From Acidovorax sp. Root219 (lineage in GTDB: Bacteria; Pseudomonadota; Gammaproteobacteria; Burkholderiales; Burkholderiaceae_C): a stretch of 64,000 nt of DNA. The position numbers and the translations under genes were made by a program. The stretch covers positions 84,278 through 148,277 of the forward strand of contig NZ_LMIJ01000024.1 in NCBI RefSeq assembly GCF_001428665.1, given 5' to 3'. The notes beneath the pieces are model-generated. The model did no database searches, had not been told where the DNA came from, and saw only the letters and a program-made list of their open reading frames with translations. This document shows positions 8,822 to 37,034 of the stretch, piece after piece; position 1 is the stretch's first letter, and each line of letters opens with the position of its first letter.

Positions 8822-9196
8822 ATGCGAATCCTTTATGTAGAGGACAACCCCGAACTGCGCGAAACCATCGGCATGCTGATGGAGGGTGAGGGGCGCGCAA
8901 TCACGACCTGTACAACGGCTGAAGAGGCGCTGGAACTCGAAAAGGCCGGCAGCTTTGACCTGCTGGTGACCGACGTGAGCCTGCCCGGGCTGTCGGGCAC
9001 GGACCTGGCTCGGCAGGTGCTGGCGGTGGACCCGCAGCGCTGGGTGGTGCTGTGCACCGGCTATGACCTGGGCGCGCATCCATCGGGCTGGGGCCCCCAT
9101 GTGCGCACGCTGATGAAGCCTTTCGAACTGGAAGACCTGGAGGCGTTGCTGGTGCAGGTGCAGTCCACCCTCGAAAAGACGCCCGCCGGGCTCTGA
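8822..9196 (+). CDS. single-domain response regulator receiver
   Basis: 124-residue stand-alone receiver domain with no output domain. Phosphorylation features are complete: acidic residues E7/D8 in YVEDNP, phosphoacceptor D51 in VTDVSLPG, T79 in LCTGYD and K99 in LMKPF. It converges on the leftward sensor-kinase/CheR/CheB operon, so it is a plausible diffusible partner (CheY-like or phosphorelay), but this is only positional. The stop codon overlaps the first base of the long palindrome at 9196-9356. Confidence 0.9.
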   Translation: MRILYVEDNPELRETIGMLMEGEGRAITTCTTAEEALELEKAGSFDLLVTDVSLPGLSGTDLARQVLAVDPQRWVVLCTGYDLGAHPSGWGPHVRTLMKPFELEDLEALLVQVQSTLEKTPAGL

Positions 9197-9356
9197 GAGG
9201 CTGAGAATCTCTCGTCCATGCCCGCCTTGCACGCCAAAACACCCCGGCTCGTCGTTGCAAATGCTCGCCATAGCCCCGGCTATGGCTGTGCTTTGCGCTT
9301 AGAGCCGAAGTGTTTTGACACGCCCTGCGGACACGGCCAAAAAATCCCCAGCCTCT
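9196..9356. repeat. 161-bp imperfect palindrome between convergent genes
   Basis: Centred on 9276. Paired blocks at increasing distance share that centre: GCCATAGC 9267-9274 / GCTATGGC 9279-9286, AAAACAC 9236-9242 / GTGTTTT 9310-9316, and AGAGGCTG 9196-9203 / CAGCCTCT 9349-9356. In the outer 55 positions of the arms about 39 are identical, and about 12 of the 16 differences become G-U pairs in the leftward transcript but C-A mismatches in the rightward one. It therefore looks like a very long RNA hairpin at the 3' end of the leftward operon, possibly also a bidirectional terminator or a dispersed element. Confidence 0.8.
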
Positions 9357-9391
9357 GATTTCCTGAGCTGCCGGCGCGGGTAGTCGTGCGA

Positions 9392-10540
9392 TCAGCCCGC
9401 AGCCGCAGCGCCGCAGCGCGGCAGAACCACATGGAAGCGCGTGGTGCCGTCTTCGGACTGCACATCGATCCGGCCGCCATGCGAGCGCACGATCTGCTGC
9501 ACGATGAACAGGCCCAGCCCCAGGCCCTGGTGGCGCCCCGGTTCCTGGTCACGCCCCCGGAACGGGCTGAATAACTGCGGAAGCAGGGCCGGCGGAATGG
9601 TGCCGCCGTTGGTCACCGTCAAGGCGACAGTGTCCGTGTCGGTGCCATCGAGTGCCACATGGATCGCCACTGCGGGATCGCCGTGGTGCACCGCATTGCC
9701 GATGAGGTTGATGGCCAGCTGGCACAGGCGCTCCTCGTCCCCCATGCCGGCCAGATTCCCCTGGTCGCTGGTACTGATCACATGGTTGGGAAAGCTGGTG
9801 CGTATCTCCTGCAGAGAGCGCTGCAGCACGGCATGCAGGTCCACGGGGGCCATGCGCATCGCCAGGCCGGTGCCCTGGCGGATGCGCGTCACGTCCAGCA
9901 GATCCTCGATCATGCGTGCCATGCGCTGGCTGCTGCTGAGCACGCGGCCGGCCAGTGCCTGCGCCCTGTCCGCCGCCAGGGGCTGGCGTTGCAGCGCCGT
10001 GGCCGCCGCGCCGATGGCCATCAGCGGCGTGCGCAGGTCATGGCTGAGCACCGCCATGAACATTTCGTTGATGCGCAGGGCCTCGGTGCGTTCGCGCAGT
10101 TCGCGGGCCAGGCTGCGCTTTTGGCGGAACAGCTCGAAGAACACGCCCGCCTTGGACGCCAGCATCTGCGGATCGATGGGCTTGTACAGAAAGTCCACGG
10201 CCCCCGTTTCGTAGCCACGGAACTGCCAGTTCGGGTCGCGCGAACCGGCGGTCATGAAGATCAGGGGGATATGGCGGGTGCGCTCGCTGCCGCGGATCAG
10301 CTCGGCCAGCTCGAACCCGTTCATCTCGGGCATCTGCACGTCCAGCAGGGCCAGCGCCACGTCACCGTGCAACAGCAGCAGCTCCAGTGCCTCGGGGCCC
10401 GACTGGGCCTTGAGCACCTCGATGCTGTCGCTGTGCAGCAGGGCTTCCACGGCCACGAGGTTTTCGGGCACGTCGTCCACCACCAGGCACTTGATGCGCT
10501 CGGCGGGCGGTGGCGGTGGGTGCAGAAGGGTGGGGCTCAC
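9392..10540 (-). CDS. receiver-histidine kinase (REC-HisKA-HATPase)
   Basis: 382-residue cytoplasmic protein with reversed order relative to most hybrids: an N-terminal receiver (about 15-135; D67 in LLDVQMPEM, K120 in YKPID), a coiled linker, HisKA with H167 in LSHDLRTPL, and an HATPase domain with an N-box (INLIGNAVHHG) and G-box GLGLGLF. It is the last gene of a leftward four-gene set and starts with GTG overlapping the cheB stop (GTGA), so it is translationally coupled. This architecture commonly links an upstream phosphorelay to a second kinase. No membrane segments are present. The signal is unknown. Confidence 0.92.
   Translation of the reverse strand: MSPTLLHPPPPPAERIKCLVVDDVPENLVAVEALLHSDSIEVLKAQSGPEALELLLLHGDVALALLDVQMPEMNGFELAELIRGSERTRHIPLIFMTAGSRDPNWQFRGYETGAVDFLYKPIDPQMLASKAGVFFELFRQKRSLARELRERTEALRINEMFMAVLSHDLRTPLMAIGAAATALQRQPLAADRAQALAGRVLSSSQRMARMIEDLLDVTRIRQGTGLAMRMAPVDLHAVLQRSLQEIRTSFPNHVISTSDQGNLAGMGDEERLCQLAINLIGNAVHHGDPAVAIHVALDGTDTDTVALTVTNGGTIPPALLPQLFSPFRGRDQEPGRHQGLGLGLFIVQQIVRSHGGRIDVQSEDGTTRFHVVLPRCGAAAAG

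Positions 10541-36957: not shown

Positions 36958-37034
<77 letters not shown>

Follow-up and report, generated by a model that had tools for sequence, protein, structure and literature searches.

The window analysed here, a stretch of 64,000 nucleotides from Acidovorax sp. Root219 (contig NZ_LMIJ01000024.1, positions 84,278 to 148,277), carries a large palindrome between a rightward response regulator gene and a leftward row of genes with domain matches to receiver/HisKA/HATPase, CheB, CheR and CHASE3/GAF/HisKA/receiver (Table 1). A preliminary description placed the palindrome at 9196-9356, with all paired blocks around a single centre and the stop codon of the convergent response regulator at its edge. 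The shared centre (9276), the regulator gene and the position of its stop codon are all borne out, but the range wrongly took in one base of each of the two TGA triplets that bracket the element. Searches of the whole window against Rfam gave no match at gathering score on the palindrome, the sole such match being a tRNA gene at 36958-37031; 15 other loci likewise gave none above that score, and in evalue mode the interval 9150-9400 returned two matches, with E of 2.2 and 4.8, far below gathering. The sequence has no T run after the minus-strand stem and thus does not have the form of an intrinsic terminator.

Table 1. Features at the palindrome locus, in window coordinates.
Feature	Position	Strand	Remarks
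Response regulator gene	8822..9196	+	Pfam Response_reg; its stop codon is the target
Target-site duplication, left copy, TGA	9194..9196	+	Response-regulator stop codon; empty site in G620 (L320)
Mobile element, class A, 159 bp	9197..9355	-	Minus is the best-folding strand ("GU strand")
Outermost inverted repeat GAGGCTG, arm continuing inward	9197..9203	+	Alignment A2
Conserved core hairpin	9246..9306	-	R1 match G000:C24:93523-93583 minus; alignments A1/A3
Outermost inverted repeat CAGCCTC	9349..9355	+	Alignment A2
Target-site duplication, right copy, TGA	9356..9358	+	
Receiver/histidine kinase gene	9392..10540	-	A read-through transcript would carry the GU strand

The two strands of the palindrome are not equivalent. 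When both were folded over 9186-9366, as the preliminary description had proposed, the minus RNA reached −108.1 kcal/mol (z −10.25) and the plus RNA −74.9 kcal/mol (z −5.99), and for neither strand did any of 200 shuffles fold as well. That description had also counted about 12 of 16 differences between the outer arms as G-U pairs in the leftward RNA; the asymmetry is real, but the count is 12 of 17. Over positions k = 25-79 (55 positions per arm, ungapped, minus strand) there are 38 Watson-Crick pairs, 12 G.T, 0 A.C and 5 others, and over the full k = 1-79, in which the core is out of register, 44 Watson-Crick pairs, 14 G.T, 3 A.C and 18 others.

The palindrome is a copy of a dispersed mobile element that has inverted-repeat ends and no gene of its own. 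The proposed search for homologous copies by blastn yielded 34 matches in the own genome, 15 of them nearly full length, 5 partial and 1 an opposite-strand echo, with the rest confined to the core or less, and 25 of 40 genomes (own included) gave a match to the window copy. The earlier suggestion of a dispersed Comamonadaceae element was right about dispersal, but the range is wider than Comamonadaceae. No match was found in phages at E ≤ 0.01, and six plasmid records gave one (4 Cupriavidus, 1 Variovorax and 1 Mitsuaria), each over less than 80% of the query. As in a MITE, the element is short (159 bp) and without a transposase gene, and its terminal repeats continue inward along the arms. 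In three genomes of the same genus (G620, G005 and G607) both flanking genes are kept and the element is absent. The closest of the three, with 95-96% identity in the flanks, reads ...CACTGA followed directly by CTTCCTG at the empty site (L320), where the window reads ...CTCTGA, the element and then TGATTTCCTG; comparison of the filled and empty sites thus reveals a 3-bp TGA duplication. One further class A copy, beside an assembly gap in the own genome (L185, C18:1-320), has a core loop that by eye encloses another small palindrome with an end of its own and the same core frame; similar sequence flanks L010.

Copies of class A show a strong excess at stop codons, in one orientation. In a survey of 97 class A or B copies fetched from the genus (37 earlier and 60 more, part of those in the genus, with L016 and L017 left out), which measure 154-171 bp end to end, the left duplication is itself the in-frame stop of a coding sequence in 81. 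Both ends could be recognised in 93 of the copies, where the left duplication was TGA in 74 and TAA in 12 and the right was TGA in 82; TCA stood at neither end in any of the 93, so the element always faces the same way with respect to TGA. Across 79 copies the target has the consensus C-TGA-GCC. When insertions with similar upstream sequence were collapsed, 81 sites remained, 68 of them (84%) at stop codons. Over 190 kb of the own genome, 54 CTGA sites are gene stops and 157 are intergenic, which sets the expected share at stops at 26%; leaving out sites closer than 60 or 100 bp to a start raises it to 31% and 36%. As a control for the stop-codon test, 37 of 370 CTGA sites in the window passed it, and 20 CTGA sites were called gene stops. 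Among elements of neither class A nor class B, a stop codon lies at the edge in 15 of 42 by raw count, read from the AC strand in 12 and from the GU strand in 3. Paired insertions with similar upstream sequence were seen in two genomes (L004/L413 and L400/L409); within each pair, one host gene stops at TGA and the other at TAA.

The same excess might arise by survivorship, if insertion occurred at random TGA sites and only the harmless ones remained. This account is a possible one, at somewhat less than even odds: the strictest background, which in addition retains only places no more than 100 bp from a stop, already predicts 64% at stops, yet the observed 68 of 81 exceeds even this figure (p 6e-5, compared with p 8.5e-19 against 36%). 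A mobile element that lands on stop codons would have an unusually harmless targeting strategy, and one that is testable.

A TNA or YTAR target is typical of IS5 relatives, and TGA or TAA in 86 of the 93 left ends conforms to the TNA form expected of an IS5-derived MITE. A second class, class C, has ends identical at 20 of 22 positions to the termini of a resident 3772-bp element (L181, 201-3973; C11:159701-163472 of the own genome). This element has a PF01609 transposase match and also encloses an IS66-family transposase gene. An autonomous element with class A ends was not found in the own draft genome. A candidate at a contig end (L184) was rejected: its bases 30-95 turn up again at further contig ends and in additional genomes where no class A ends accompany them, and it was read as another repeat inserted in a class A copy. 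Ends of the TAGTGT type in G030 form 7 pairs whose starts are 145-175 bp apart, plus 5 singles, and none of these ends in that genome lies about 1 kb from a partner. Mobility through a RAYT was rejected as well, the two Y1 loci (L178 and L179) having no core match. A dedicated neighbour gene was not found either: by eye, from the first residues, none of the 15 largest reading-frame clusters around 252 loci resembled a transposase. The fixed orientation to TGA would be odd for a DDE transposase acting on nearly symmetric ends.

One folded core of about 60 nt is common to palindromes with unrelated arms. Nine loci in the own genome, two of them interrupted by N runs, match the window copy in the core alone and carry different arms that are again palindromic. 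From 20 own-genome sequences a model (R1) of the central 61 nt was built; at E ≤ 0.1 it gave 47 matches in that genome, counting echoes. Core matches at E ≤ 0.001 were present in 35 of 200 genomes of the order (own included), representing 26 of 109 genera. A broader model built from 76 sequences (R2), applied with a cut-off of E ≤ 1e-4 to a phylum-wide sample of 398 genomes (own included), matched 67 of them, in 44 of 213 genera. Discarded from 165 core-model matches were 15, of which 13 were opposite-strand echoes and 2 were partial. An exact core pattern occurs in at least 118 stretches of named genomes; the matches listed for it include Acidovorax, Variovorax, Ramlibacter, Rhizobacter, Ideonella, Massilia, Castellaniella, Methylobacillus, Thiomonas and others, together with a small number of metagenome bins carrying the labels Gammaproteobacteria, Bacteroidetes or Desulfovibrionaceae; these names suggest Pseudomonadota as the phylum. 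On the GU strand the conserved frame is C(T/A)AGGC-stem-CAG-stem-loop-stem-GAG-stem-AACG(A/C)CG; the window copy departs at single positions from the family frame CTAGGC-stem-CAG-stem-loop-stem-GAG-stem-AACGACG. In some genomes an element carries two cores in opposite orientation within one outer stem, with a mini-hairpin such as CCCGAAGGG between them. Two inverted cores were seen at L146, L150, L151, L148, L152, L173 and L093 and at L311 and L318 (the last by eye); those of them that were folded place a tiny hairpin between the cores within the single outer stem and resemble a four-way junction. A further locus (L175, positions 1471, 3304 and 4582) holds three cores in 3.2 kb, adjacent to frames that by eye resemble a regulator and a sensor kinase.

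One strand of these elements is biased towards foldability, in wobble pairs and in compensatory changes alike, with orientation set by the core. In a first set of 150 elements, the arms were aligned outward from the core, G.T and A.C were scored alike, and each element was oriented by its core alone. The 94 elements counted at a score threshold of 30 gave 484 G.T, 42 A.C, 363 other and 3496 Watson-Crick pairs. Nine of the 33 arm clusters had no countable element; G.T exceeded A.C in 21 of the remaining 24, three showed no difference and none the reverse. Copies whose arm differences are G-U compatible on neither strand, which the preliminary description had named as evidence against its proposal, were looked for in these clusters and not found. 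In a second set, of 122 pattern matches in named genomes, 74 passed the arm score, compared with 2 of 606 random anchors, and gave 298 G.T against 30 A.C; of 30 clusters, 13 showed the bias, 1 the reverse and 16 no difference. Arms related to the first set occur in 82 of the 122, none 99% identical over 50 nt, and the second set is thus a replicate that is not fully independent of the first. Its clusters with arms unrelated to the first set, with 14 elements counted, gave 40 G.T against 8 A.C, clusters standing 7 to 1.

Compensatory changes were followed in an alignment of 34 class A and B sequences (A2), from which L059, L087 and L043 (class A) and L046 (class B) were left out. Its consensus fold has 61 pairs, of which 24 changed on both sides, and 96.9% of cells pair, compared with 90.5% in shuffles, none of 500 of which reached any of five measures; the opposite strand would pair in 85.0%. 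Since this fold was derived from the very sequences tested, the arm count over 150 elements is the fairer test. Pure deamination of C was rejected as the source of the wobbles, which occur both in columns with G-C alternatives and in columns where other copies have A-T pairs. Taken together, the excess of G.T across clusters and the compensatory changes point to selection of one strand to fold, which seems to be a property of the element family rather than of an operon.

The preliminary description had proposed selection on an RNA hairpin at the 3' end of the CheR/CheB kinase operon. Strand-specific selection for folding is supported and the RNA nature of the hairpin is probable rather than proven, but the operon link is wrong: an RNA specific to this operon is ruled out by the empty site and the family-wide bias. 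The wobble bias belongs to the family irrespective of the direction of the neighbouring gene. In a set of 56 copies, 20 have a left-hand gene whose transcript corresponds to the GU strand and 30 a right-hand gene whose transcript corresponds to the opposite strand; the GU strand has no preference for sense transcripts.

Changes shared between copies were compared with those private to one copy, using Watson-Crick consensus pairs in the 12 clusters with at least 4 rows (smaller clusters left out). One-copy changes stood at 108 G.T to 71 A.C and shared changes at 61 to 24 (Fisher p 0.076). Cluster 2, which consists of two-core elements and is badly alignable, contributed 6 shared G.T and 10 shared A.C; without it the one-copy changes were 101 to 63, a weak lean towards G.T (p 0.004), and the shared changes 55 to 14 (p 0.009 for the comparison). 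These figures give no more than a hint that the fold is maintained in lineages that spread and is lost more readily in copies that stay in place. The persisting lean of one-copy variants towards G.T, with or without cluster 2, together with the location of copies at gene ends, would also fit an RNA element of the host, located at the 3' ends of genes and retained because its transcript stabilises or terminates the adjacent mRNA. We consider this quite improbable, because the gene whose stop is hit does not have the GU strand as its sense strand, the GU strand shows no preference for sense overall, the window copy is absent from three relatives and no T run follows the stem.

The bias is not confined to wobbles, as purine mismatches are strand-biased too. 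Counted once per distinct column and cluster, isolated mismatches in the first and second sets were 72:17 and 59:11 for G.T/A.C, 19:9 and 25:6 for A.G/C.T, and 11:5 and 20:2 for G.G/C.C; over all columns of the second set, A.G stood to C.T as 194:17 and G.G to C.C as 83:24. From known stability orders, purine mismatches are expected to be favoured in DNA hairpins. The folded molecule might then be single-stranded DNA, its core recognised as a one-strand hairpin in the manner of REP/RAYT or attC and its arms holding mismatches that DNA tolerates. The strand bias of A.G and G.G suits such a molecule, as do the two-core inverted elements, in which each hairpin leans towards G.T on its own strand (13 G.T to 4 A.C and 17 to 2). 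We nevertheless regard it as fairly unlikely: weighted by copies, the G.T/A.C ratios of 206:18 and 123:11 exceed those of A.G/C.T (28:16 and 35:7) and G.G/C.C (16:10 and 30:14), the target duplication is a precise 3 bp, and the two Y1 transposase loci of the genome lack the core. The copy-weighted excess of G.T favours RNA, and the folded GU strand more likely acts as RNA than as single-stranded DNA.

We therefore favour, with a probability of about 0.6, the view that the palindrome belongs to a non-autonomous, MITE-like family of mobile DNA whose core strand is selected to fold. A DDE transposase provided in trans, of IS5 type for class A, would move the DNA, and the core strand, in RNA form (the likelier case) or as single-stranded DNA, may be recognised by a putative factor that aids spread or tolerance. 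Insertion in a stop codon would regenerate the stop and so leave the host protein untouched. Against this view stand the lack of an autonomous class A element in the own draft genome and the lack of a preference of the GU strand for sense; against the RNA form, the G.A and G.G asymmetries fit single-stranded DNA equally. An improbable alternative is a phylum-wide, SINE-like system in which a host- or parasite-encoded factor recognises the core, as RNA or as a folded strand, and spreads short palindromes with many different ends, class A insertion being directed to the sense-strand stop codon, for example by coupling to RNA or transcription. Were this so, directed insertion at stop codons would also explain the fixed orientation of class A. 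The core and its strand bias provide a sequence test of whether the hairpin of a bacterial repeat matters, a question usually left open for such repeats, and on which strand.

Several known systems share part of this design. Searches of the open-licence literature yielded no recognisable description of the core, of a strand-specific core shared by unrelated ends, or of the class A excess at stop codons. Like IS5-family insertion sequences, the element makes a TGA (TNA) duplication, and in class C the ends match a resident DDE_Tnp_1 element's at 20 of 22 positions; unlike those sequences, it has no transposase and is palindromic throughout, and a class A partner was not found. Integron attC sites conserve structure rather than sequence and act with one strand folded, and the core resembles them in both respects; inspection by eye gave no attC consensus. 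REP and BIME sequences, as described in PMC2817692, are strand-specific hairpin units, sometimes paired inversely and associated with RAYT transposases. They are matched by our strand-specific hairpins and occasional inversely paired cores, and differ from our element in length, in its target duplication and long arms, and in the placement of a REP beside a RAYT, the core being absent from L178 and L179. The Correia/NEMIS, ERIC, RUP and CIR MITEs, as described in PMC10969869 and PMC2229807, are short, gene-less and mostly intergenic, with inverted-repeat ends and a target duplication; their transcripts are predicted to form stable stems, CIR consists of two arms and a linker, and TA termini are listed for Correia and ERIC. 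The window family is likewise short, gene-less and mostly intergenic, with inverted-repeat ends, a target duplication and transcripts for which stable stems are predicted. Unlike these MITEs as described there, it has one core across unrelated ends in the phylum sample and a strand-specific wobble bias, and, in place of the TA of Correia and ERIC, class A lies at stop codons with a TGA duplication.
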